The notes under the pieces were generated by a model that ran no database searches, was not told the origin of the DNA, and saw nothing but the letters and a program-made list of their open reading frames with translations. Shown here one piece after another: positions 2,134 to 46,637 of a stretch of 50,961 nucleotides of DNA. Each line of letters starts with the position of its first letter. Positions within the stretch are counted from its first letter, which is position 1. Origin of the DNA: a virus. The DNA lies in IMG/VR virus record IMGVR_UViG_3300041809_000337, positions 1 to 50,961 of that record; one strand, written 5' to 3'. A program made the position numbers and the translations under genes.

Positions 2134-3023
2134 TGAATCCACAAGCACCAGCAGTAACACCAGGACAACCAGTAGCTCCGTTAGCTAACAACGTCAACCC
2201 ACAAGGCACTGTTACTCCTCAGGCTATGGGTGCGCCAACCCCCTCCCAATTACCTACAGCTCCCACACCTGTAACTCCTCCGCCAGTGTCAGCTATTCCC
2301 CAACAAACTAATCAGCTTCCGCAACAGCTTAATAATATTGCCGACTACTATTCAATCCCTCGCCAGACTGCGGCCATGGTAAATGCTGCCCAAGCTCAAG
2401 GTGCTAACGCCCAACAGGCAACTAAGTACTCGACGGCTCAAGCTGGATTTAGCGTGGAAACAGCCAAGCAGATGCTAGACCCCAGTAGTTATAATATAGT
2501 TCAAGACTCCAGCAGTCCTATGGGTGTTAAAATTACTAATCCTATGGGTGAAGAAGTAAGTTTATCTACTTATAATAATCTGACAGGACAGGAAAATCCC
2601 GTATCAGTTCTTGAAAACTCTTCTAACCCACAAGCCCAGCAACTATATGCTGACTACACCAACTTAGAAAACTATATCCAGACCAGGCAGGCTGCCGACA
2701 ATGGTAGCGTAGCTGCTATACAAGCCTTGGGCGATTACTATGACGCTAATCCAGGTTTAAAGAATGTTGATCTGGGGCAGCTACAATCAGCCTTTATGAA
2801 TACTTACGGCCAACAACTATATGGCGTAACTCCAGGCGGACAGAACCTACAGCAGTCTATAGGTACTAACAATATCCAATCCGCTGCCAACCCAGCCACC
2901 CAGAGTGCTTATGAGGATCCAGCTTACGTTGCTGCTCAACAAGCTAATCCCTATAACACGGCTACCCAAGCTGGTGGTTCGCCATCTCAAATGTTATCTT
3001 TACTCAATAACGCAGGACAATAG
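2133..3023 (+). CDS. Putative internal virion protein
   Basis: This 296-aa protein has a Pro/Thr/Ala-rich N-terminus (residues 1-65) and then a mainly helical, Gln- and Ala-rich body. The start ATG overlaps the stop of the previous gene (TAATG), so translation is probably coupled. It has no membrane segments, cysteines or known catalytic residues. It sits between the Gln/Ala-rich protein and the 1,128-aa glycine-zipper protein, the usual place for the smaller ejection proteins of short-tailed phages. The function is inferred from context. Confidence 0.6.
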   Translation: MNPQAPAVTPGQPVAPLANNVNPQGTVTPQAMGAPTPSQLPTAPTPVTPPPVSAIPQQTNQLPQQLNNIADYYSIPRQTAAMVNAAQAQGANAQQATKYSTAQAGFSVETAKQMLDPSSYNIVQDSSSPMGVKITNPMGEEVSLSTYNNLTGQENPVSVLENSSNPQAQQLYADYTNLENYIQTRQAADNGSVAAIQALGDYYDANPGLKNVDLGQLQSAFMNTYGQQLYGVTPGGQNLQQSIGTNNIQSAANPATQSAYEDPAYVAAQQANPYNTATQAGGSPSQMLSLLNNAGQ

Positions 3024-3025
3024 TC

Positions 3026-6000
3026 ATGGCCGATCTAGTTATGAACTTTCTGGAAAAAGCCCTTCCGACTGTCGGTATGGTGGCCGGTGGTGCAATCGGT
3101 GGTTTAGTTGATCCGTTTGGTGGCGAAGTTATCGGCGGTGCATTAGGCAGTGCTCTAGGCAAAGCAGGTGAAAATGCAGCTACCGGACAAAAAGTTACCA
3201 GTGGAGTAATGGGTTCAGCTGCCGGTGGTGCGTTCGGTGCATTAGGCGGTTCGTTGGCTGGTTCGTTCTTGGAAGGTGCAGCTCCAGAAATAGCAGGCGC
3301 TACTGGCGTATTCGGCAAAACGATGGCTGGAGCAATTAAAGGTTCAGTGACTGGCGGCGCAGGCAGTACGGCTGGAGCAGTGGCTCAAGGCGAACCCATA
3401 ACTGGTAAAAATCTGACTATGAATTTCTTACAAGGTGCAGCTATTGGTGGAGTAACTGGCGGGGTGCTAGGCGGTGGCGCAGAGGCTCTTAAATCAGCCA
3501 GACGGCTTAACCAAGTTGGCGGTATTAATAACCCGATTGATGATGATACTGCCCAAAAAGCTGCTGAAGAACAAGACCCGACTAAAGTTGAGAAAATTCT
3601 TCAGCCAGAGACTGGCCCAGTAGTGTCTAAAGATGTTGCTCCGGCTGTAGCTACGACCAGCAAAGGCGACCCAGAAATTGTTAAGAGTATAGTCCAAAAT
3701 GATATTAATAAGAAAATATCGCCAGCAACAACCCCCTCCCCTGCCCCGACCCCCCTGCCACCCACCACCCCTGTTAGCGATATAAATACCCCACAACAAG
3801 TTGCAGGGCAGGCAAGTGCTGCTGAAGAAAACTTTATGAACCCACCAAGCGAAACACCCACGCCTGAAATCGCTTCTACAAAAGTCAGTAAGTTAGGTAC
3901 GATGAGTGAGATGGGCGACATACTAAATACGGGCGGTACGACTGATGAAGCCCTTTATCATTACATGACAAAAGTGCCTGGTGCTAATATGTCAGACGCC
4001 CAGAACGCTCTTGACCAGACAATCCAATCAGCCGGTGTAGACAAAAGTAAAATCAATGCTTCACTGAATCCGCAGTCAGACAAAGTAAGTTTTGCTCCAG
4101 TTAAAGAGGGTGATGATATGGGTGCGCAACTGAACGGCAGGTACGCTGGCGAGAAGCTAGGCCAAAACGGTGCGCCTGCCTACGAAGCTATGCAAGCTCT
4201 CGATCCATCAGACCGTGAGCTTACTAGGTACTTGCGTGGCAAGAACGCCCAACAAGTGGAAGACATCATCAAGCAAGCCAAAGACCCAGCAGCTTTCAGA
4301 ACCTACGTCAATGCCGCTAAGAACTATAACGATTACGCCCAAGCTGGTGGTGCCCAATTAGGCCAGCCACTGCCGTATCGGGTGAACTACGGTGGCCGTA
4401 CAGCTTACGAACCGCCCGAAGGACTGCCCGAAGCTGGTCCTAAAGGCGCAGCCAACCCAACCACTCCTGCTTATACACAGCAACGCTACTTCAATACCCA
4501 CGAAGAAGCCCTGGCTGCCGGTTACACCCCTCGCTATGACGACCCGCTGGAAGAACTCAAGAACGACATTAACCAACGTGGCTACAACCAAACTCAGCTG
4601 GCTCTGGCTAAGGGTTACGAAGACGCCCATCCAGGCCAAGTCCAACTTCTTAATGACAACACTCCCTTAAAAGCTGGCTATCACCAACTCCTAGTGCCAG
4701 GCGGTGAGCATATCGCCATGCCCTCAAGTATAGCCGACCCAATCAATAATCGTATTATGACCAGTACGCCTGGAAAAATCTTAGGTAAGTATGACACTAT
4801 CAACGCTGCCGGTAAGCAACTGGAACTAGGCGGTGGTACGTTCCACGGTTTCAATACCATGGGTGCGTTTGCCGGACAGCAACTGAGCAGCGGTAAACTA
4901 TTCACTGATCCTGGTGCGCTAGGTAAAGTAGTTTCCAACTTCTTCAGCGATAGAAACATGGAGAAATACATAGCCGATAACAGTGACGCTTCAGTCAACC
5001 CCAGTGGCGGGGTGGATACCAACCACAGCGTATCAGATGGTGCTAAGGCAGCTGGACTGAACATTAAGAACACTTCGATAGACTTAGATAACCCTGGAAG
5101 AGAGGGTCTGGCTGGCAAGATTGCCAATATTCCAGGCTTGAAACAAATCCATCAAGCAGTCTTTGACAGACAGATCCCGTCTATGATGTTAGAAACCTTT
5201 AAACAGAAGACTGCCGGTTTGGACATTTTCGGCAGTGCTGATGATCGTCTGCAGGCTGAGAAGATCGCTAGAGGAATCAATAAAGAGTTTGGTGTAACTG
5301 ACCACGACTTGGCGGGTATGACATCTAGGCAATTCAAAGCAGCTGGACGGGTGCTGCTTGCGCCAGGTTATCAAGAGGGAGTTATCCACACCCTGATGAC
5401 AGCCCTTGACCCAAGAAGCTTAGGTACGGCTGAGGGTTTATTAGCCAGACAAGCAGTCATAGGTAAGGCTCTAGTGATGGGTGGGCTGGCTACAGCTGGT
5501 GCTGTTGCCGGTGGGGATTTTCAAGGCATGACACCCAAGCAAGTGGCTATGGGGATTATGAATAAAGCGATCAACCCCAGCTTCACGATTGCTGGCTATA
5601 AGGTCAGTACTCCAGCCACATTTATTTCAGATGTTGCCAAGCCAGTTGAGGAGTCTGTCGCTAGCGCCAAGCAGGGTAAAGGTATCGCTGCTGGTGCAGA
5701 AGATTTTGCTAGCTCGCACTTAGCCTTTGCGCCCAGTAAAATTGAGGAGTTTGCTACCAATAAGAACTACGAAGGTAACGCTATTTACGGGACGGACTAC
5801 TATGGCCGACCCATCCCAGCTACTAATGTAGCTCAGAACTTAGCTAGTGGTGTGTTGCCTATCCCTCTAGCCCAGACCAGTCAAGCAGCAACAGGAGCAC
5901 AATCATGGCAGGCTGCACTGGCTAACGAGGTAGGCTTCAACGCCGGCCCATCTAGTAACCTAGATTATGCTCCTGTAGCAGCTCAGACTTACGTGCAACA

Positions 6001-12113: not shown

Positions 12114-13304
12114 TCATGCTTCCGTTAAATTTAAATATTCACCTAACCCAATTCCGAAAGCCCTGGCTTGGCATAAATCAGCATCGCCTATCTCGCCGAC
12201 TTTAGGCTCAACCCACTCCAAGAAAACCCTATCAGTACTAGCATCTTTCATAACTATGCAGTATTCAGTCGAACCAGTATCCATGAAGTTTTTAACACGG
12301 TAAAGTTTAGTGCCTTTCTCTCCGGTATGTATGAGTTCGGCTTTCATCTGTTTGAGAAGCCTGTCTGGGCGGAGCATAGATAAGGCAGCAGCCCGTTGGT
12401 CGGCATTACCAATCGTCAGTACGTCTTTGGCGGTTACTTTATGGTTGATTATCTTGTTGTAAAGTTTCTCGTCAAACTGTACGCCTTGAAGAAAATAGAA
12501 TCCTGTCCCATTTGACCACTCCACCGCTTTGCCGTGGTCGTAGTGAAGTCGCTGGTCATTAGTAATCATGCGAGGCATAGGCACTAGGATTAATTTATCT
12601 TTCATGGGAAAGAAAAAGCCTAAGCCATTCTCTAGGGCTTTCAGGCTTTCGGTAGATATTTCAATCCATTTAAGGATAGATTTATCTTTTTTTTCAGAAT
12701 TGAGTAATCCAGCTAAAGACGCTGCGTCCCACGCTGCGTCCCGCGCTGCGTCCCACGCTGCGTTCCACGCTACGTTCCGCGCTACGTTCCGCGCTACGTT
12801 CCGCGCTGCGTCCCACGCTGCGTCCCGCGCTGCGTCCCGCGCTACGTTCCGCGCTGCGTTCCGCGCTGCGTCCCACGCTGCGTTCCACGCTGCGTTCCAC
12901 GCTACGTTCCGCGCTACGTTCCGCGCTGCGTTCCACGCTACGTTCCGCGCTACGTCCCGCGCTGCGTCCCGCGCTACGTCCCACGCTATTTGAAACCCAA
13001 TTACCATATCTTCGGCAATTTCAACATTAGGCATTTTTGTACCTAAAATTTCGTATTGTCGCTCAAAGCATTTTAAAACTACCTTCTCATTCCAGTAAGG
13101 TTCATCATAGTTAAGTTTTGCCAACCTATCTATAACTTTCTGGGCAGCTTTATTAATCTTTGGTGGCGTAAGTGACTGGTCTCCAGCAATCGTAGCCCCG
13201 ACTTGCCATAATGCGCCAAGTTGTGCAAAATTCTGTTGAGCCGCCTGCTGATTAGCCTGATTAAGCTGACTCATTAAATTAGATAAGTTATCTTCATTAT
13301 CCAT
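12114..13304 (-). CDS. Protein with long Ala-Ala-(Arg/Trp)-(Asp/Asn) tetrapeptide repeat
   Basis: This 396-aa protein has an N-terminal Gln/Asn-rich segment (1-40) and a helical region. Residues about 106-195 are made of some 22 tetrapeptides of the type A/V-A-R/W-D/N. The C-terminal half (200-396) is a mixed alpha/beta domain without recognised motifs. The repeat is encoded by 12-bp units. Similar Ala/Arg/Trp/Asp runs occur in many phage proteins of unknown role, usually inside an otherwise globular protein. It lies in the leftward early-type operon. Confidence 0.75.
   Translation of the reverse strand: MDNEDNLSNLMSQLNQANQQAAQQNFAQLGALWQVGATIAGDQSLTPPKINKAAQKVIDRLAKLNYDEPYWNEKVVLKCFERQYEILGTKMPNVEIAEDMVIGFQIAWDVARDAARDVARNVAWNAARNVARNVAWNAAWNAAWDAARNAARNVARDAARDAAWDAARNVARNVARNVAWNAAWDAARDAAWDAASLAGLLNSEKKDKSILKWIEISTESLKALENGLGFFFPMKDKLILVPMPRMITNDQRLHYDHGKAVEWSNGTGFYFLQGVQFDEKLYNKIINHKVTAKDVLTIGNADQRAAALSMLRPDRLLKQMKAELIHTGEKGTKLYRVKNFMDTGSTEYCIVMKDASTDRVFLEWVEPKVGEIGDADLCQARAFGIGLGEYLNLTEA
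12721..12987. repeat. 12-bp tandem repeat inside the Ala-Arg-Trp-Asp protein gene
   Basis: About 22 copies of a 12-bp unit of consensus GCGTYCCRCGCT (with GCTACG variants) lie in tandem without spacers. Because the unit is a multiple of three, gain or loss of copies keeps the frame. Long open frames on the opposite strand are a by-product of the repeat. Confidence 0.9.
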
Positions 13305-16054: not shown

Positions 16055-16242
16055 TTGCTTTCCTTCTGTTTAGTTATGGGTCGCATTATGTTACTGCGAA
16101 TTTTTAAGCAGCCGTAGCAAATCTGGGTGAGGGCATCGTGGAAACTAGAGTAAGCCACCTGTTGCATGTGATGTCCCTCGCACTGCTGAATATGTTTGCG
16201 GACTTCTGTTTGGGTTGGCAGATATTCGTAATCAAAGGTCAT
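16051..16242 (-). CDS. Small Cys/His protein, paralogue of the gene at 15547
   Basis: This 63-aa protein has an acidic, aromatic N-terminus, a CEGHH motif near residue 21, and the CYGC-containing C-terminal half that it shares exactly with the 59-aa product downstream. The pair differ only in their N-terminal halves. Start overlaps the preceding stop by four bases. A zinc-binding role is likely; the target is unknown. Confidence 0.65.
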   Translation of the reverse strand: MTFDYEYLPTQTEVRKHIQQCEGHHMQQVAYSSFHDALTQICYGCLKIRSNIMRPITKQKESK

Positions 16243-17003
16243 CTTAGCTCCTTTAAGTCTTTAGCTAGCTTGAGCATGTAAGCATTAATCTTTTTGGTTA
16301 AGGCGTCATTGGCGGCATAGGTGGCATCGGTGGCATCGGTGGCATAGGTGGCGGCATAGGCGGCGGCATGGGTGGCGGCATTGGTGGCATTGGTGGCGGC
16401 ATTGGTGGCGGCATAGGCGGCATAGGCGGCATTGGCGGCGGCATAGGCGGCATCGGCGGCATAGATGGTGGCATTGGCGGTGGCATTGGCGGTGGCATTG
16501 GAGGCGGCATAGGCGTTATAGGTGGCATAGGCGGCATTGGCGGCGGCATAGGCGGCATTGGCGGCGGCATCGGCGGCATAGGCGTTAGCCTTAGTCGGCT
16601 TCTTTAGATATTTCTTAGCCGCCTCGATTGCATTTCTTGGTCGCTTATCATTAGGGTATTGCTTTTCGTAAATGTCAATGACTAGCTCGGCGGCGTAAAC
16701 CGCCAACTTGACCGAAGTTATCTTATCCCACTCCCACGCCTGAACTATCCGCATTTTCTGATGACAGTGCTTATCATTTTCAGCGTCTTTGTCTTTTTTA
16801 CCGGCAACTTCAACCTTAGCCAGGACTGTTCCGCTCACATACGAAAAGGCTTGGTAAATCTTATCCGAACAGTGTAAGCCGTTGTGACAGCACCTTATCT
16901 TGCCCTTAACCTCTTGCCATTCGTTTATACGCCAAGTAACATTACCAGAGCGTGACACAATCTTCTTGCGATGGAGGTCTAGGAATTTGTAATAAGTTTT
17001 CAC
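16239..17003 (-). CDS. Protein with N-terminal globular domain and Ala/Tyr/Asn repeat tail
   Basis: Residues 1-135 of this 254-aa protein are globular, with several Cys/His (CCHNGLHCSD) and aromatic residues. The segment WRINEWQEVKGKIRCCHNGL resembles the start of small domains found in phage proteins of unknown function. Residues about 138-237 are a low-complexity run of Ala with Tyr, Asn, Thr and Asp every third or fourth residue. The last 17 residues are a Lys/Leu-rich helix. It parallels the Ala-Arg-Trp-Asp repeat protein encoded 3 kb downstream. Confidence 0.7.
   Translation of the reverse strand: MKTYYKFLDLHRKKIVSRSGNVTWRINEWQEVKGKIRCCHNGLHCSDKIYQAFSYVSGTVLAKVEVAGKKDKDAENDKHCHQKMRIVQAWEWDKITSVKLAVYAAELVIDIYEKQYPNDKRPRNAIEAAKKYLKKPTKANAYAADAAANAAYAAANAAYATYNAYAASNATANATANATIYAADAAYAAANAAYAAYAATNAATNATNAATHAAAYAATYATDATDATYAANDALTKKINAYMLKLAKDLKELR
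16303..16590. repeat. GGC/GGY-AT(A/T) short tandem repeat in the Ala/Tyr/Asn tail
   Basis: The plus strand reads as imperfect 6- and 9-bp units (GGCGGCATA, GGTGGCATT and similar) for about 290 bp. The unit keeps the reading frame, so length changes would alter only the protein tail. Open frames coding Met-Pro-Pro or Gly-Gly-Ile repeats here are shadows. Confidence 0.85.
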
Positions 17004-27819: not shown

Positions 27820-28110
27820 ATGGCATCACAGAGACCTACCTGGCCAGACATCCTCGACCCAGCTTTCCGTAAGATTTACGGTGACGAAATTCGTCAGTTG
27901 CAACAGCAAGTATTCTCTATCTTTAATGTCGACACCTCGGTGAAAAACATTGAAAAGGATTCGAGTGCTACTGGTTTGTCACGCTTGGTTCAAACGAGTG
28001 AGTCTGCGCCTATAACATACGAAGATGAAGTTGAAGGGTACAACGTTATATATACCCACCTAAAGTTTGCTAAGGGTACTTCGGTGTCTCAGGAACTTTG
28101 GGAAGATGAT
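27820..28110 (+). CDS. Major capsid protein, exon 1 (residues 1-97)
   Basis: It follows AAGGAT and starts MASQRPTWPDILDPAFRKIYGDE. The frame reads on into the intron for 35 codons, but the natural protein appears to leave it after ...SQELWEDD, at the group I 5' splice site (after T28110). Exon 1 is exactly 97 codons. The segment THLKFAKGTSVSQELWEDD is typical of the region before the spine helix in HK97-type capsid proteins. The host of the intron is the most highly expressed gene of the virion, a common site of intron insertion. Confidence 0.85.
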
Positions 28111-28742
28111 TTTGTAACACTGGTCATCGATAAACTGAAAATGATAAAGGGAACGCTAAAGCAATTAAAGCAATTTGCCACGCCAACCCTTAGCAAGCAG
28201 GGATTAACAATTTGAATAAGAAGCACTTGAAGCAGCGAGCATATCTGGCTGGCTTCGTTGACGGGGAAGGTTGCATAACCATTGTCCGTTCAGCAGGTCA
28301 AGCGAGATGTAAAATCGGCTACTCAATACGTGTAGATGTCGGCCAAAAGGACGGCAAACTGATGGACTTACTATATGGACTCTACAACGGCCACGTTTGT
28401 CAAGAGTTAAAAGATGGTAAGTTCGCCCATTACCGTTGGACGGTATACGGCAAATCAGCCTACAAAATTTTACACGACATTGAGCCTTTCTTGATTATCA
28501 AGAGAGAACAAGCTCGGCTCGCTATGGAATTCTTTGACCGTTCATTAAAACGGCGAGAGGATTCCGGCAGATATAGTCTGACTCCAGAAGTTATCGAACG
28601 TAATGATAGCGACTGGAGTAAGATTCGAAAGCTTCATAAAATATACAGTCAATCCCATGCAGCTGCAGAGACTAAGTTTTTCAGCGCTCCAAAGAGCGAA
28701 GCGATAGTCCACCCTTAGATGAAAGTCTAGGATAAGGTACAG
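28111..28742 (+). mobile_element. Group I intron in the major capsid gene
   Basis: Exon 1 ends GATGAT, which pairs with GTCATC at 28123-28128 to give a 6-bp P1 with the expected U-G pair at the splice site. P7 is GACTA (28670-28674) with TAGTC (28705-28709). P8 is CGCTC/GAGCG (28685-28698). P9 is CTTAGAT-GAAA-GTCTAGG (28714-28731) with a GNRA loop. The intron ends ...TACAG with the terminal G at 28742. Splicing joins codon 97 to TTT GGC GTG ATG in frame. Together these are strong by-eye evidence; P3-P6 were not fully drawn. Confidence 0.88.
28212..28718 (+). CDS. Intron-encoded LAGLIDADG homing endonuclease
   Basis: This 168-aa protein starts with TTG. It has a single LAGFVDGEG motif at residues 12-20, the catalytic dimer-interface helix of the LAGLIDADG family, so it should act as a homodimer. 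A beta-strand/helix pattern follows. Its last 20 codons also contain the intron's P7 and P8 sequences, and its stop lies in P9, so protein and ribozyme overlap. It cuts intron-less capsid genes to spread the intron. Exon 1 read-through stops (TGA) inside its start region. Confidence 0.88.
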   Translation: MNKKHLKQRAYLAGFVDGEGCITIVRSAGQARCKIGYSIRVDVGQKDGKLMDLLYGLYNGHVCQELKDGKFAHYRWTVYGKSAYKILHDIEPFLIIKREQARLAMEFFDRSLKRREDSGRYSLTPEVIERNDSDWSKIRKLHKIYSQSHAAAETKFFSAPKSEAIVHP

Positions 28743-29381
28743 TTTGGCGTGATGAGGAGAAAGCCCCAAAACCTCGCCAATGCTAAGATTCGGACAATTG
28801 AGCAATTCGGTGCTGATATTCTCAACAACGGATTTACCGCCGGTGGTGGCGGTTCAGCGCCTTTTACAGGCCCTGACTCAGTAGCGTTGTTCTATAATGC
28901 CCACCCTCGTGAAGACGGTGGTTCCACACAGAGCAACTACATCACCGCTGACCTGAGTGAAGATTCGATTGAAAACGGACTCGTTACTATGCGAGCTACT
29001 CTCGATGGTAAAGGTCAGCTCATGTTAGTTAACCCCCAGACATTACTAGTTCCGCCAGCCTTGGAAAAGGAAGCTAGAATCCTAATGGATTCCATGCAGC
29101 GGACTGGTACGACTAACAACGATATCAACCCCTATAAGGGTCGGCTCGAAGTTAAAGTTTGGGATTACTTGGGTTCCGTAGCCGGTGGTTCGGATACAGC
29201 TTGGTTCATTTATGATAAGGCTGTTTCAGAACTTAACTGGTTTAACCGCTCAGATTTAGGTCTGCAAGGCCCCGATTGGGATTTCGATACTACTACCGCA
29301 AGGTGGAAAGTCGTTTGCCGTTGGAGTGCCGGTTGGTCAAACTGGCGGGGGTGGTATGGTAGCCTAGGTACTAACGCTTAA
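28743..29381 (+). CDS. Major capsid protein, exon 2 (residues 98-309)
   Basis: This exon supplies 212 codons. Joined to exon 1 it reads ...ELWEDD|FGVMRRKPQNLANAKI, a smooth continuation. The long helix (NLANAKIRTIEQFGADILNNGF), the P-domain-like segment and a beta-rich C-terminus suit an HK97-fold capsid protein of 309 aa. An isolated start at GTG 28749 would give a protein lacking its N-terminal arm, so splicing is the better explanation. Confidence 0.85.
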   Translation, partial: FGVMRRKPQNLANAKIRTIEQFGADILNNGFTAGGGGSAPFTGPDSVALFYNAHPREDGGSTQSNYITADLSEDSIENGLVTMRATLDGKGQLMLVNPQTLLVPPALEKEARILMDSMQRTGTTNNDINPYKGRLEVKVWDYLGSVAGGSDTAWFIYDKAVSELNWFNRSDLGLQGPDWDFDTTTARWKVVCRWSAGWSNWRGWYGSLGTNA

Positions 29382-29444: not shown

Positions 29445-30305
29445 ATGGCAATTGGAGATAAAACATACCCCTGGGCGATGCATACTGCTTGGGGCTTAAG
29501 TGTACCGCAGGTCTTGAAAGATGTAATTGAGACCACTGGTGGTTACACTAATAATAAGAAAATGGTTTCAGCAGGTACGGCAGCGGCAGTTTTAGCTTCA
29601 ACGGCTGGTGCGGCAACAAAACAAACTATTACGGCGGGTATTACCAACCCAGACGTACCAAGAGTTCTAGCCATCACAATTGGTGGTTCTGGATATTCTT
29701 CTGACAGTATTCTTATCAACGGCGTAAACGTTGAAGGTAAACCGATTACCGATACAATAGCTTATACGGCTAATGCCCAGGTAATTGGTTCGTTGGTATT
29801 TAAACGAGTTACTTCTATAGTCATCCCAAGTACATCAGGTACTTCGATGACACTTACGGTGGATACTACGAACCGCATCGGCCTTGACCACCGTCTAGTC
29901 CCTAATTACTCGACTATCGCTTGTCTGTCGGCCACGCTGACAACAGCTTACACCGACCACACCACAACAGCTTTCCATACTAACTTCCCGATTGTGGAAG
30001 CAGCCGTTTCGGCTTCTAACATTGACGGTGAGTTCGTGGAAAAGAACTGGGCGCAGCCAGCCACCGCACCTAACGGAACCACTTACCTGATATTCTTCTA
30101 CTGGTTCTACAAAGTTCTGGTCTATCCGCCAAAGGATTCGCCGGAGTTCTACTCGACGACTACTTCAACAAGTTCATCGACTTCTTCGACGAGTACTTCA
30201 AGTACTTCAACCAGTGCAAGTACGTCTGTCAGTTCAACTTCAGTTTCGACTACAAGTATCTCAACATCAAGTACATCAACTTCGACAACCACGTTGCCGG
30301 TATAA
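29445..30305 (+). CDS. Virion protein with Ser/Thr-rich C-terminal tract
   Basis: This 286-aa protein has a beta-rich globular part (1-235) with many Thr, Val and Gly residues. The last 48 residues are almost only Ser and Thr in STSTSS-like repeats (30150-30297). It follows the capsid gene after a strong hairpin. It may be a head or neck decoration protein whose tail extends from the particle. The same kind of tract occurs in two tail/fiber proteins encoded 14-20 kb away. Mucin-like tracts are typical O-glycosylation sites. Confidence 0.7.
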   Translation: MAIGDKTYPWAMHTAWGLSVPQVLKDVIETTGGYTNNKKMVSAGTAAAVLASTAGAATKQTITAGITNPDVPRVLAITIGGSGYSSDSILINGVNVEGKPITDTIAYTANAQVIGSLVFKRVTSIVIPSTSGTSMTLTVDTTNRIGLDHRLVPNYSTIACLSATLTTAYTDHTTTAFHTNFPIVEAAVSASNIDGEFVEKNWAQPATAPNGTTYLIFFYWFYKVLVYPPKDSPEFYSTTTSTSSSTSSTSTSSTSTSASTSVSSTSVSTTSISTSSTSTSTTTLPV

Positions 30306-34885: not shown

Positions 34886-35499
34886 TGGCTGATTTCTGGG
34901 CGAAACTTATGAGCAATGACGAGAATACTGCCGCCCATTACATGGAAACGTATGGCGAGGGTATAGGCTCGGACACCCGTATGATACTCGGTTCGTTCAT
35001 TAATGATAAGGAAACAGTCCTAGATGTGGGTTGCGGGCCAGGCTGGAACTATGCCCACTTTATGAAATACGGTCCGAACGTCAGAAACTATAAGGGTCTG
35101 GATTATTCCCCCATGTTTGTCAAAGTAGCCAAGGAGCGTAACCCAGAAGCCGATTATCAGCTTGGTGACTGCCGTAAGCTGGAAGAGGCAGACAAGTCCT
35201 GGGATGTGGTTATACTCCAGGATGTACTGGAACACACCAATGGGTTTGAGAAACCCGTCCTAGAGGCTCTTAGAGTGGCTAAGAAGCGGATTATCATCAC
35301 CTTCTGGCACTTGAAAGACATGGACGACCCACACATCAATGATGACGGAGATGACGGTTGGGGAGCGTGGTATGATAAACGGGAGTGGGAGAAGTTCTTA
35401 GACACACTGGATTACCACTGGCTAATGACTGAAACCCCACCCACCGCCAACAGGCAACATCTCTTTTACATTTTAGACAAGAAAGAACCCCATGGTTAA
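34885..35499 (+). CDS. Class I SAM-dependent methyltransferase
   Basis: This 204-aa protein has the SAM motif I VLDVGCGPGWNYAHF, motif II YKGLDYSP, and LQDVLEHTNGFEKPVLEALRVAKKRIIITFW. This set is typical of small-molecule or sugar methyltransferases (UbiE/type-11 group). In this cluster O-methylation of sugars is the likely job. It overlaps the next gene by eight bases. Confidence 0.85.
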   Translation: MADFWAKLMSNDENTAAHYMETYGEGIGSDTRMILGSFINDKETVLDVGCGPGWNYAHFMKYGPNVRNYKGLDYSPMFVKVAKERNPEADYQLGDCRKLEEADKSWDVVILQDVLEHTNGFEKPVLEALRVAKKRIIITFWHLKDMDDPHINDDGDDGWGAWYDKREWEKFLDTLDYHWLMTETPPTANRQHLFYILDKKEPHG

Positions 35500-36844
35500 A
35501 GACATCATTGTGGGCTATGGTCAGATCGGCCAGGCTGTTCACGAGGTCATCTGTCCCGATGCCCATACCTACGACATTAACCAGAAGAACCGTAAGGCTG
35601 CTCCGGTAGGCGTGATGCATATCTGTTTCCCCTACTCCGAAGATTTTGTCGAGCAAGTGAAAGGCTACATCACACGCTACGAACCGCAACATGTTGCTAT
35701 CTGGTCAACCGTGCCGATTGGCACGACTGATAAATTCCCTCAAGCTGTCCACACCCCCGTTGAGGGCGTCCACCCAAACCTAGCTAAGAGCATTAAACTA
35801 ACGACCCGCTGGATTGGTTACAACCGTAAGATGTCAGGTGCGTTCTTTGAGCATTACTTCAAGGAACGCCATCTCCAAGTACGGCTCGTACCCAATACCA
35901 GATACACCGAAGCCCTTAAACTCTTAAGCACTACTGAATATGGGCTGAATATAGTCTTTGCGGATTACAAAGCTGAGGTGGCTAAAGCGATAGGCATGGA
36001 CTACCAACTCACCAAAGACTGGAATAAGGACTACAACCAGCTTTACAAAGAACTCGGCTTAAAGCAGTTCCAGAAGTTCATACTCGACCCACCCAAAGGG
36101 AAGATTGGCGGCCATTGTCTAATCGAGAATGCAGTACTTCTAGATGAAGTTTATCCTTCTACGTTGCTTAAGAAATTATTATCTCTTAATAAAGACCTAT
36201 CGACTATTAAAGAAGTAAAGCCTTATCTTAATCGTACATGGCTTTATGCGGAATATTGGGGGAAAGAGAAAAGCTCTGAGGATATAGGTAAAGAATGGGG
36301 ATGTACAGGCGCTAATATTTTGCGAGTGATGAAGCAGTTTAATATAAAGCGCCGGACTCAGAAGTGGAGTGCAAGCGAGATTGAAGCATTAGTTAAACTT
36401 TCTGTAACAAATACTTTTAAAGAGATATCAGAAGAAGTTGGAAAAACGCATGACGCTGTTCGCTTGATGGCAATTAAGCTTGGCCTGAAGAGTATATATA
36501 ATCCTGGAGAGAGAGATGAAGTCACTAGGCAAAAAATAAGTGCTTCTCTTCAAGGGATATCTTTAGAAGAATGGGACGGTTTTAAGGAAACAGTTAATCA
36601 ATTAATCAGAAAATCTGAAGCTTACCAGGATTGGCGCAAGTCAGTCTTTGAACGAGATAGCTACACTTGTCAACATTGTGGAGCTAGTAGCGGTAGCGGA
36701 AAGGCTGTCGTTTTACATGCTGACCATATAAAACGATTTGCTGAGTATCCTGAGTTAAGGTTTGACATTAATAATGGTAGAACCCTGTGCGTAAATTGTC
36801 ATCGTAAGACAGATACCTGGGGTGGAAGGAAGGTAAAGAAATGA
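35492..36844 (+). CDS. Nucleotide-sugar dehydrogenase-like protein fused in frame to an HNH homing endonuclease
   Basis: Residues 1-233 form a dehydrogenase-like unit: an NAD-binding start (VGYGQIG, 8-13) and KGKIGGHCLIENAVLLD at 202-218, resembling the GGHC catalytic-Cys motif of UDP-sugar dehydrogenases. Residues about 240-345 contain two helix-turn-helix-like repeats, and 378-445 an HNH domain with Cys393-x2-Cys396, His409/His412, Asn428 and Cys433-x2-Cys436-His437. Base composition becomes AT-richer at about 36130. The endonuclease was probably inserted at the end of the host gene, giving a fusion. NAD(P) use and substrate are inferred. Confidence 0.78.
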   Translation: MVKDIIVGYGQIGQAVHEVICPDAHTYDINQKNRKAAPVGVMHICFPYSEDFVEQVKGYITRYEPQHVAIWSTVPIGTTDKFPQAVHTPVEGVHPNLAKSIKLTTRWIGYNRKMSGAFFEHYFKERHLQVRLVPNTRYTEALKLLSTTEYGLNIVFADYKAEVAKAIGMDYQLTKDWNKDYNQLYKELGLKQFQKFILDPPKGKIGGHCLIENAVLLDEVYPSTLLKKLLSLNKDLSTIKEVKPYLNRTWLYAEYWGKEKSSEDIGKEWGCTGANILRVMKQFNIKRRTQKWSASEIEALVKLSVTNTFKEISEEVGKTHDAVRLMAIKLGLKSIYNPGERDEVTRQKISASLQGISLEEWDGFKETVNQLIRKSEAYQDWRKSVFERDSYTCQHCGASSGSGKAVVLHADHIKRFAEYPELRFDINNGRTLCVNCHRKTDTWGGRKVKK

Positions 36845-40031: not shown

Positions 40032-40068
40032 TGGCAAGTTCACCAACGATATGGTGAATGGTGTATAA
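40003..40068 (+). pseudogene. Duplicated, truncated 5' end of the glycosyltransferase at 40513
   Basis: The frame MRISMFDPYNGKFTND ends at a TAA after 21 codons. It matches the start of the intact gene 510 bp downstream (MKIAVFDPYNGKFMKD) over about 16 residues with several substitutions. A homing endonuclease lies between the two copies. Confidence 0.75.
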
Positions 40069-40069
40069 T

Positions 40070-40516
40070 ATGAATATGAAACAGATAGAGCTGACTCGTG
40101 ATAAACAAGTAATGGTGGATGATGATGATTATGAATGGCTCAATCAATGGAAGTGGTTTTACGATAATAAATATGCTGCTAGGACTACGTGGACTGCCGA
40201 AGGTCAAAAGAAAATATACATGCACCGACAGATTATGGGTTTCCCTCAACAGGCAATAGACCACAAGGACCGTAATAAGCTAAATTGTCAACGATATAAT
40301 CTACGTCCTACTACTGCACGAATTAATGCATTGAATAAAGATAAGCTATCTCGAAATACCTCTGGATATACAGGTCTTATCTGGTGCAAAGATGGGAGAT
40401 GGAAAGCTGAGGTTTATGTAAATGGTAAAGCTATTGCAAGATACTCTAAGTACAAAGAAGTTGCTATCGAAAAACTAATAGCTTTGAGAAAACACTATTA
40501 TGGAGATTTAGCATGA
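40070..40516 (+). CDS. HNH homing endonuclease with AP2-like DNA-binding domain
   Basis: This 148-aa protein (ATG 40070; 40058 and 40076 are other options) starts with MKQIELTRDKQVMVDDDDYEWL and YAART. It then has HRQIMGFPQQAIDHKDRNKLNCQRYNLR, the HNH core (His...IDHKDxNxxN), and SGYTGLIWCKDGRWKAEVYVNGKAI, an AP2-type DNA-binding strand set. It is free-standing, inserted between a truncated and an intact copy of a glycosyltransferase start. Confidence 0.88.
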   Translation: MNMKQIELTRDKQVMVDDDDYEWLNQWKWFYDNKYAARTTWTAEGQKKIYMHRQIMGFPQQAIDHKDRNKLNCQRYNLRPTTARINALNKDKLSRNTSGYTGLIWCKDGRWKAEVYVNGKAIARYSKYKEVAIEKLIALRKHYYGDLA

Positions 40517-42730: not shown

Positions 42731-42772
42731 ATGGCACTTGCGTTAGACAAATCGACTGGTAAAAGTTCGGCA
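42731..42772 (+). pseudogene. Truncated 5' end of a fiber gene
   Basis: ATG 42731 opens MALALDKSTGKS, and the coding signal is lost after about 14 codons, where an antisense HNH gene begins. The downstream fiber frame starts similarly at 43204 (IALAFVEGK...), 12 of its first 18 bases agreeing. I read this as a duplicated start separated by an endonuclease insertion. Confidence 0.5.
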
Positions 42773-43177
42773 GTTTTTACAAACATGCTTCCTCAGCACC
42801 TTGCCAGTGTATTTGCTAATCCCGTTTTTGTGAAAATCAGTTTCAGGAAATATATTTCCACACTCAAAGCATTGACGCAACCCATCCTTAGTTTTAAGAG
42901 GATTTCCAACTTTAAGTCTACCTTTACGGATTTTATCTCGCATATTATCCAGTTGGCTACCGAGAAAAAGATGGTCTATATTCACACAAGTTGGATTATC
43001 ACACGAGTGGCATACAAGCATACCACTGGGTATTTTCCCTTTATTTATAATCCAAGTATATCTGTGAGCACCTATTGTTCTACCCCTATACCACTTAGCT
43101 CCGTAGCCGTTTGGGTTTATAGCTTTATCCCACAATATGCAGTCTTTCATATAGATATTGTATACCCCAAGTGCCAT
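42743..43177 (-). CDS. HNH homing endonuclease on the minus strand
   Basis: This 144-aa protein contains GAHRYTWIINKGKIPSGMLVCHSCDNPTCVNIDHLFLGSQLDNMRD, an HNH core with His/Cys ligands typical of free-standing phage endonucleases. A zinc-ribbon-like tail follows (CFECGNIFPETDFHKNG...CKNC). It is the only minus-strand gene in the late region. It lies inside the 5' end of a fiber gene and overlaps that gene's truncated start. Confidence 0.88.
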   Translation of the reverse strand: MALGVYNIYMKDCILWDKAINPNGYGAKWYRGRTIGAHRYTWIINKGKIPSGMLVCHSCDNPTCVNIDHLFLGSQLDNMRDKIRKGRLKVGNPLKTKDGLRQCFECGNIFPETDFHKNGISKYTGKVLRKHVCKNCRTFTSRFV

Positions 43178-43896: not shown

Positions 43897-46637
43897 TGGC
43901 TACTCAAACCGTATCGGCTGTAGGCGGAAACTGGAGTTCAAGTGCTACCTGGTTACCTGGAAGTATACCCGCAGCTGGCGATGATGTAGTCCTTAATAGC
44001 AGCTCCGGTAACTTAACTATCGATGTCAACACTGTTGTAGTTCGGTCGTTTATTTGTACTGGCTTCACGGGCACTATTACGCATAACGCAGGAGTAACTT
44101 TAAATCAGGGGGGGGCAACAGCACCAGCCTCAAATATTGCGATAGTTTTTGCAGGAACCTACACAATAGGAAATGCAACCACCTCAGCCATTTCGATTGC
44201 CGACACCTCTGCCGCGATTAACACCTATAACTTCAACGGTGCAACTCTGGGAAATGTAACTATAAATAACGGCACAACAACGACTATGAAGTTAGTGACA
44301 TCCGGCTTTAATACTGGTGCAACAGCTACCGTTACGCATACCCAAGGTGGCCTTAACCTTAACAGCCTAAACTGTTCGTGGGGTTTTTATAGTTCGGCTA
44401 ACTCAAATACGCGTGCGCTTAATCCTGGCACTGCAACTATTACACTTACCGGTGCCGGTGGTACTTCACTTAACTTAAGTCCGGCTACCAATATGACTTA
44501 TACGTCATCTACTGAAACGTGGATTTTGAGCGGATTAGCTCCTGCGGTTGCCATAGCAAGCAATGTTACTTTTGCTACAGGAAGCACGATTGCGTTTACC
44601 GGCGGCGGCGGCGCAGTCATATTTGGTAATAACCAGTTCGGCAATATTACTTACACCGGCACGGCTACCAAAACCTGTAGCCTTACCATCCTATCGTCAC
44701 GAACAAATACCGGTACGCTAACCATTAACGGTAATAGTGCGACCAATCGTGTCCTTTTTGGTGTTAGTCTGGTTGGTTCACAATATACAGTTACCAGCGC
44801 GGCCAATTCATTTTCAAATGTCGATTTTCAAGGCATTACTGGCGCTGGCGCAGCATCTTGGGACGTACATGCTATAACTGGTAACTCTGGTGATTGCGGC
44901 GGTAATTCTGGCCTTATGCTTACTAGTTCCGTACAACAAACCTGGAGTGGCACATCGGGTGGTAACTGGTCGGCAAATGCCTGGACTACACGAGTACCAT
45001 TACCACAAGACGATGTAGTGATTAGCTCGGCTTTTTCAGCCTCTCAAACCATTACATGCGATATGCCGCGTCTCGGCCGCAGTATTAACTGGACGGGGGC
45101 AACAGGCAACCCGACATTTGGCTTTACCGTAACTTCAAACACAATGTATGGGTCACTAACCCTAATTTCCGGCATGACCTACACCGGTAGCGGTGCGCTA
45201 ACATTCGCCCCCAACGGCAGTTATAACTTAACAACCGCTGGGCTAACACTTACCAATGGGCTAACACTTGCTAGTGGTGCTGCCGGAACTTTAACGCTGC
45301 AGGGCAATCTTGTAACTAGTAGCTCGCTGACATTAAACGCCGGCACATTCATCGACAATGGCTATACAGTAACTTCTACTACCGTTTCAGTCACGGGTGC
45401 AACTTTAACTAAAACCGGTAACTGGTCACTTACCTCAACCTCTGCAGCCACTGTTTGGAACTGCACAGCGGGAACGATAAGCGACACGGGCACGACTACT
45501 ATAACGAATGCAAGTACGAATACCAGAACCTTTGCCGGAGGCAGTAAGACTTACGGCACCCTTACCTATACTGTGGCCGGTTCAACTGGTCTACTAATTA
45601 TTACTGGCTCCAACAGTTTTGCGACTATTAATTTTAGTGATGCTAGCAATGCGCGAACTCTACAGTTACCTTTTGGCTCGACAAACACTTTCGGGAGCGG
45701 TTTTAATGTAAACGGCACAAGCGGCAAGCTCATGACCGTTAACTCTAGTTCTGTGGGTAATGCTGCGGCAATTAGCTATAGCGGTACAGGGCCTATAAAC
45801 TGCAACTACTTATTCATACAAGACAGTGCACCGGCGCAAACAAATACTTGGTTTGCGGGTAATAACTCAACGCTTGAATCAAACACCGGCAACTGGATTG
45901 CTGGTACCAGTACCAGTACCAGTCAATCGTCTACCTCTAGCAGTACGTCTCTCTCTACCTCTACTTCTATAAGTTCTACGTCCAGCTCAACATCCCAGTC
46001 CACCTCCACCTCGATTAGTTCCACTAGCAGTAGTACCTCTACCAGCCAGAGCTCTACCTCATCCTCTATTTCCCAGTCGACTTCCACTAGCATCAGCTCA
46101 ACCTCAAGCAGTATATCTACCACTCAAAGTACTTCTACTAGCCAGTCCAGCACTAGCTCATCAATCAGTACGTCTCAATCAACCTCCACCAGCGTGAGTT
46201 CCACATCCAGCAGCACCTCGACCACCCAGTCCACCAGTACTTCACAATCCTCTACCAGCTCGTCTATCAGTACCAGCACTTCCCAGTCCAGTACGTCTAG
46301 CTCTACCTCTACATCCCAATCATCCACTAGTAGTTCTACATCACACAGTACCTCAACTTCCCAAAGTTCTACCAGCAGCAGCACCTCGCAGTCAACTTCT
46401 ACCAGCCAGTCAAGCACTTCCAGTTCCGTATCAACCAGTACTTCCTCTACCAGTTCATCAAGTAGTATTAGTACTTCTTCGACCTCATCCAGTATCAGTA
46501 CAACGGTTAGTTTCACCACTTCGACTTCCAGCACCTCTACAAGCAGTACTTCCAGCTCTACCAGTTCTACTACCACGCTGATTGACTATGGGTTTAAACC
46601 ACGCATAACAAGTCACTGGAGGCTCAAATGGCGTTAG
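43896..46637 (+). CDS. Large beta-helix-like fiber protein with long Ser/Thr tract
   Basis: This 913-aa protein is made of short Thr/Asn/Gly/Ser beta repeats from residue 1 to about 665, with two copies of a W(S/T)G-x-GNWS-like start (GGNWSSSATW; GGNWSANAW), typical of beta-helix fibers. Residues about 670-890 are an almost pure Ser/Thr run (45903-46575) with occasional Gln, Ile and Val. The last 20 residues (DYGFKPRITSHWRLKWR) are basic and aromatic. Codon use is T/A-ending compared with terL and portal. It is a probable host-recognition fiber. Confidence 0.78.
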   Translation: MATQTVSAVGGNWSSSATWLPGSIPAAGDDVVLNSSSGNLTIDVNTVVVRSFICTGFTGTITHNAGVTLNQGGATAPASNIAIVFAGTYTIGNATTSAISIADTSAAINTYNFNGATLGNVTINNGTTTTMKLVTSGFNTGATATVTHTQGGLNLNSLNCSWGFYSSANSNTRALNPGTATITLTGAGGTSLNLSPATNMTYTSSTETWILSGLAPAVAIASNVTFATGSTIAFTGGGGAVIFGNNQFGNITYTGTATKTCSLTILSSRTNTGTLTINGNSATNRVLFGVSLVGSQYTVTSAANSFSNVDFQGITGAGAASWDVHAITGNSGDCGGNSGLMLTSSVQQTWSGTSGGNWSANAWTTRVPLPQDDVVISSAFSASQTITCDMPRLGRSINWTGATGNPTFGFTVTSNTMYGSLTLISGMTYTGSGALTFAPNGSYNLTTAGLTLTNGLTLASGAAGTLTLQGNLVTSSSLTLNAGTFIDNGYTVTSTTVSVTGATLTKTGNWSLTSTSAATVWNCTAGTISDTGTTTITNASTNTRTFAGGSKTYGTLTYTVAGSTGLLIITGSNSFATINFSDASNARTLQLPFGSTNTFGSGFNVNGTSGKLMTVNSSSVGNAAAISYSGTGPINCNYLFIQDSAPAQTNTWFAGNNSTLESNTGNWIAGTSTSTSQSSTSSSTSLSTSTSISSTSSSTSQSTSTSISSTSSSTSTSQSSTSSSISQSTSTSISSTSSSISTTQSTSTSQSSTSSSISTSQSTSTSVSSTSSSTSTTQSTSTSQSSTSSSISTSTSQSSTSSSTSTSQSSTSSSTSHSTSTSQSSTSSSTSQSTSTSQSSTSSSVSTSTSSTSSSSSISTSSTSSSISTTVSFTTSTSSTSTSSTSSSTSSTTTLIDYGFKPRITSHWRLKWR
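45903..46575 (+). repeat. Ser/Thr codon low-complexity tract (longest of three)
   Basis: About 225 codons are nearly all Ser or Thr, in STSQSSTSSS-like units. Codons vary (TCN, AGY and ACN are all used), so the protein sequence rather than DNA slippage appears to be under selection. Antisense frames of Val/Glu/Leu are shadows. Confidence 0.9.

Follow-up and report, generated by a model that had tools for sequence, protein, structure and literature searches.

Organization of the locus

The DNA analysed – virus record IMGVR_UViG_3300041809_000337, positions 1–50,961 (50,961 nt), hereafter the window – holds a phage major capsid gene in two parts, with the reading frame of a homing endonuclease between them. 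The principal features are:

27820–28110, + strand: first exon (exon 1) of the major capsid gene, 97 codons, the last three being GAA GAT GAT (from homology to uninterrupted genes)
28111–28739, + strand: predicted group I intron, 629 nt, with A28739 at the omega position (from empty-site comparison, P1/P10 and covariance model)
28212–28718, + strand: LAGLIDADG homing endonuclease ORF with a single motif, LAGFVDGEG, I-CreI/I-MsoI-like
28740–29381, + strand: second exon (exon 2) of the major capsid gene, first codon CAG (Gln) (from homology and the profile of the joined protein)

Joining the two exons gives a protein of 310 aa that matches the profiles PF25209 (Phage_capsid_4, E=1.7e-18) and PF10124 (Mu gpT, E=1.9e-11), and by these matches exons 1 and 2 encode a single predicted phage major capsid protein of the Phage_capsid_4 / Mu gpT-like type. 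The first-pass annotation of this DNA had named a major capsid gene as host, and exons of such a gene do lie on both sides. Uninterrupted homologues, 51–96% identical to the window protein, were found on 34 IMG/VR contigs. An intein was ruled out by a stop codon in the exon-1 frame; judged by sequence comparison, what divides the capsid gene is a group I intron with a LAGLIDADG endonuclease.

The endonuclease ORF matches PF00961 above cut-off (26.6 bits, E=1.1e-5) and phrog_5046 (E=5e-24), so that the family first proposed for it stands. Its sequence also matches an I-MsoI-derived chain (3fd2, E=7e-9) and I-CreI (E=1.5e-5), enzymes of similar length that share the single LAGLIDADG motif. I-CreI and I-MsoI come from algal chloroplast rRNA introns, whereas the target of the window enzyme would be a phage capsid gene. 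The TTG start of the ORF overlaps the stop codon of the exon-1 frame (TTGA), and its 3' end runs through P6', P7, P3' and P8 into the 5' strand of P9: the double constraint that had been suggested for an endonuclease frame overlapping the ribozyme core is real, and affects the last ~22 codons. Related free-standing endonucleases are without most of this C-terminal tail. A Shine-Dalgarno-like AGGG (28199–28202) sits in the 5' strand of P6, and folding of the intron would therefore hide it.

The intron core

The helices recognized in and around the intron are:

28105–28128, + strand: P1, GAUGAU (28105–28110) with GUCAUC (28123–28128), at the best-scoring junction
28119–28122, + strand: P10 guide strand ACUG, adjoining P1; its partner is CAGU of exon 2 (28740–28743)
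28135–28141 and 28678–28684, + strand: P3, CUGAAAA with UUUUCAG, from complementarity and the same layout in relatives
28147–28151 and 28187–28191, + strand: P4, AAGGG with CCCUU, from complementarity, corresponding to GGGAA...AACCC of the relatives
28197–28205 and 28651–28660, + strand: P6, GCAGGGAUU with AAUCCCAUGC, one bulge, from complementarity, with the endonuclease ORF in its loop
28661–28737, + strand: catalytic 3' domain J6/7-P7-P8-P9, from covariance model R1
28670–28674 and 28705–28709, + strand: P7, GACUA with UAGUC, with an outer pair G28668–C28710 and a bulged A28669
28685–28689 and 28694–28698, + strand: P8, from sequence
28714–28720 and 28725–28731, + strand: P9, with a GAAA loop, from sequence
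28711–28713 and 28736–28738, + strand: putative P9.0, ACC with GGU, directly 5' of A28739, from position

The core elements P3-P4-P6-P7-P8-P9 occur in the correct order; P7, P8 and P9 are placed by model R1, while P3, P4 and P6 were assigned by complementarity and by comparison with relatives, and the putative P9.0 by inspection of its position. P1, P7, P8 and the GAAA-capped P9 lie where the first-pass annotation had put them, and its 5' splice site, after 28110, holds as well: U28110 forms the expected wobble with G28123 in P1, and this is the best-scoring junction. The guanosine-binding P7 pair is present (G28670–C28709) and is invariant as G-C across 21 aligned relatives. A near-identical copy of the 5' domain, GAUAAAGGGAAC...AACCCUUA.CAAGC, is found at a related locus, L225.

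Relatives were gathered by two routes, via the endonuclease and via a P7 core pattern. The latter fits at least 120 stretches in the scan, which indicates that the intron family is common. A model of J6/7-P7-P8-P9 (R1) was built on 21 phage introns related to that of the window, which itself was excluded; the model contains 18 pairs with 91.5% paired cells, and its covariation score is 0.684, compared to 0.186 for shuffled and at most 0.120 for slid alignments. On the window, R1 gives a single match, at 28661–28737 (64.4 bits, E=1.8e-14, E-values being rough owing to a short calibration), in agreement with the original proposal of a group I intron. It gives no match to the 34 intronless capsid loci, and recovers every intron that had been spotted by eye at 13 further loci. 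The general model RF00028, which had been put forward as the check, finds no significant match in the window: the score is below the gathering score, with 9.5 bits and E=4.2 for the 3' half. Of eight family members tested, RF00028 found one, the ORF-less L215 (40.1 of 50 bits, E=6e-7); since the other seven were also missed, the negative result is uninformative, and for this predicted intron it is the family-specific model R1 that is decisive for the group I assignment.

The endonuclease alone, used as query in the viral scan, gave no relative, and the intron DNA compared to cultured phages gave one match of note, of 36 nt. A scan with a 16-mer from P7 gave two matches, both judged to be due to chance. 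At the window's own insertion site no second copy of the intron was found.

Placement of the 3' splice site

The 34 uninterrupted relatives define the empty site. In every one of them a residue stands between D-D and F (Q in 24, E in nine and L in one), without a gap. When 28110 is joined to 28740, WEDDQFGVM is restored exactly and the protein is 310 aa long; this join reads SVSQELWEDDQFGVMRRKPQ, identical to the uninterrupted locus L008. The guide ACUG-GUCAUC (28119–28128) pairs without a break with GAUGAU/CAGU, the slash marking the junction, to give a P1 of 6 bp and a P10 of 4 bp.

Because an unconstrained search for P1/P10 was swamped by false junctions, both P3 and protein homology had to serve as anchors. 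With P3 fixed at 28135–28141 and the terminal base left unconstrained, the junction 28110/28740 ranks first; among nearby in-frame junctions, 28740 scores 227 for protein and pairing combined, against 208 for the best that ends in G. (When protein homology was left out, anchoring on P3 gave noisy results across all loci, and these served as a guide only.) Since the boundary 28739/28740 follows both from the uninterrupted relatives and from P10, the intron end is put at A28739. The sequence evidence thus supports an intron that ends in A, without the canonical omega-G, and not a canonical omega-G-terminated group I intron. The first-pass annotation had ended the intron on a terminal G at 28742 and derived a 309-aa product from the splice 28111–28742. 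That splice yields D-D-F by removing CAG (28740–28742) and with it the residue found in all 34 relatives; the end was misplaced by 3 nt because the Gln codon had been counted as intron in order to finish on a G.

Omega-G is near-universal in group I introns and takes part in the second splicing step, so an A in its place should slow or misdirect splicing. The omega-G-less intron of Coxiella burnetii reportedly ends in A, and its splicing is slow. Within 3 nt of A28739 there are G's at 28736, 28737 and 28742, which may be used in splicing today. In the window itself, a single sequencing or assembly error at 28739 may be responsible for the A.

Non-G ends among related introns

Across the family, uninterrupted relatives were used to map junctions by protein homology, the last base once more being left unconstrained. 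Well-supported terminal bases obtained in this way are 34 G, three A, two C and one T; the related loci counted are a convenience sample, and several of them share one insertion site and so are not independent. Two of the apparent exceptions were left out of the non-G count: L213 (C), where protein agreement is poor, and L294 (T), where a shift of one base gives G. L225, L328 and L330 have ambiguous ends and were excluded from the count. The first homology assignments of L265, L303 and L226 proved to be tie-breaking artefacts, L303 ending in G on inspection.

Four non-G cases were retained: A is the last base in the window, L052/L321 and L041/L322, and C in L339. L041, L052 and L339 share one insertion site, DFP/IKYQ, in a different capsid family (phrog_9953 major head protein), and each has a P1 of 6–8 bp, a P10 of 6–7 bp and exact restoration of the protein. 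In L339 the intron ends at 2500/2501, where both homology and P10 make the terminal base C (AACAAAATTC/ATAAAG). For L041 the junction is confirmed by uninterrupted homologues of its gene that are up to 87% identical, the value for L331. The L052 sequence was found again in contigs of two further data sets, and a sequencing error there is therefore unlikely. A fourth intron at the FP/IK site of the phrog_9953 capsid gene, L043, ends in G. Aligned, the 3' ends of these four introns read roughly UAACA-xAAUU-[G/A/C].

The endonucleases of L041, L052 and L339 are 44–57% identical (42–57% with L043 included) and their frames are open. Given such divergence with open frames, introns without omega-G have apparently persisted and are not freshly broken. 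The four introns resemble that of the window in core, endonuclease family, capsid host gene and exact empty sites, and differ from it in capsid family, in insertion site and in the sequence from P9 to the 3' end, their terminal bases being A (L041), A (L052), C (L339) and G (L043). By these mapped boundaries, predicted non-G ends recur in phage introns at two capsid-gene sites.

A proposed mechanism and its alternatives

The core, the guide pairings, the empty sites and the exactly inherited boundaries with A at the omega position are features of the DNA. We infer in addition self-splicing, the use of A in the second step, and the activity and target of the endonuclease. Taken together, the locus is probably a mobile group I intron whose core is standard and which would use A28739 as the second-step nucleotide and leave the capsid protein unaltered. 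According to this hypothesis, an intron of a large phage family inserted between the capsid codons GAT and CAG. Its RNA would fold into the standard P3-P9 core, and the guide ACUG-GUCAUC would form P1 with the last bases of exon 1 and P10 with the first bases of exon 2. An exogenous guanosine, bound at the unchanged P7 G:C pair, would cut after U28110; exon 1 would then attack the bond after A28739 – positioned by P9.0 and P10 – and be ligated to C28740, and the ligated mRNA would give the unaltered 310-aa protein. The I-CreI-like endonuclease in the P6 loop would cut intronless capsid genes and so spread the intron.

Three other readings bear on this. A canonical intron from 28111 to the terminal G28742, with a capsid protein of 309 aa lacking one Gln, would end in G after an exon 1 that ends in U, stay in frame and use the same P1; against it, P10 shrinks to 1 bp, the residue lost is the one kept in all 34 relatives, and the three bases shifted into the intron are exactly the missing codon, a combination that makes this reading highly improbable. 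It is also unlikely, if less remote, that the boundary 28739/28740 is ancestral and that G28739 mutated to A, splicing now being shifted to a nearby G or mostly blocked and the element decaying. Omega-G matters for the second step, and neighboring G's allow in-frame use: G28742 at the cost of the Gln, G28737 together with U28111 at the cost of an additional Leu. Decay, however, is at odds with a core, a guide and an endonuclease frame that are all intact in the window, and with relatives ending in A or C whose endonucleases have diverged to the extent described above, their non-G ends having apparently persisted with open frames.

The last reading dispenses with the intron and sees two separately translated capsid proteins (27820–28215 and 28749–29381) flanking a free-standing endonuclease. 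There is a GTG start in exon 2 with AAGG 11 nt upstream of it, and free-standing relatives of the endonuclease exist, for example upstream of the capsid gene in Stenotrophomonas phage StenR_269; a complete group I core whose P1/P10 guide matches exactly at the junction, and a 310-aa protein restored exactly by joining, render this scarcely credible.

Going beyond the window, we suggest tentatively – the proposal is possible but has less than even chances – that phages carry functional group I introns without omega-G, that the second step works with A or C while P9.0 and P10 set the 3' site, and that such introns persisted at two capsid sites, possibly since slower splicing tunes capsid production. 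The four phage introns ending in A or C at these sites, beside relatives ending in G, amount to natural experiments on 3' splice-site choice, in a reaction for which the terminal G is taught as near-invariant. They also bear on annotation: a rule that an intron must end in G misplaces junctions and drops codons, as happened in the first-pass annotation.

Comparison with known introns

Mycobacteriophage LittleE carries a probable group I intron with a LAGLIDADG gene in its major capsid gene (Pope et al. 2013, PMC3706429). Comparison to an intronless relative revealed it, and RT-PCR and protein sequencing demonstrated that it is spliced (PMC3706429). The intron of the window is like it in host gene, in an I-CreI-related LAGLIDADG endonuclease and in an exon 1 that ends in U (PMC3706429). 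The LittleE intron, however, has G as its last base and its endonuclease gene on the opposite strand (PMC3706429), whereas that of the window has A as its last base and a sense-strand endonuclease gene, which lies in the P6 loop and overlaps the core. Raghavan et al. 2007, by its title as cited (ref. 20 of PMC3428280), deals with a group I intron in the 23S rRNA of Coxiella burnetii that has no omega-G. The Coxiella intron and the window element are both natural group I introns without omega-G, the former being a single element in a bacterial rRNA gene, the latter lying in a phage protein gene and accompanied by three more non-G introns (A, A and C) at a second phage capsid site. No report of recurrent non-G intron ends in phage capsid genes was found in the literature (open-access papers). 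Introns in capsid genes and one bacterial intron without omega-G are already known; the recurrence of omega-A/C at two phage capsid-gene sites appears to be new.

Additional observations

Three viral contigs (L218, L227 and L261) have three copies each of the intron core pattern among the matches listed. In L106 (IMGVR_UViG_3300033388_006548, 2209–3050) two group I cores lie ~680 nt apart, and the guide belonging to the first core matches exon sequence beyond the second (P1 of 9 bp, P10 of 8 bp), a pattern that suggests introns arranged in tandem or nested. In Stenotrophomonas phage StenR_269 (L039) the related free-standing LAGLIDADG gene occupies 1462–1911, immediately 5' of an intact major capsid gene.

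Elsewhere in the window there are further endonuclease genes and repeat-containing proteins:

12114–13304, - strand, and 16239–17003, - strand: short-repeat proteins (DAARNVAW and AANAAYA types) from repetitive DNA
30100–30305 and 45900–46600, + strand: structural-region proteins with long Ser/Thr-rich C-terminal stretches (STSSTSTS...TTL)
35492–36844, + strand: one frame with a dehydrogenase-like N-terminal part (by eye) and a C-terminal HNH endonuclease (PF01844, residues 393–439)
40058–40516, + strand, and 42743–43177, - strand: HNH endonuclease genes (HNH_3; 40058–40516 just under cut-off)

The HNH part of 35492–36844 is possibly an inserted or fused homing endonuclease. With the two further HNH_3 genes, the genome would hold at least four endonucleases of homing type.
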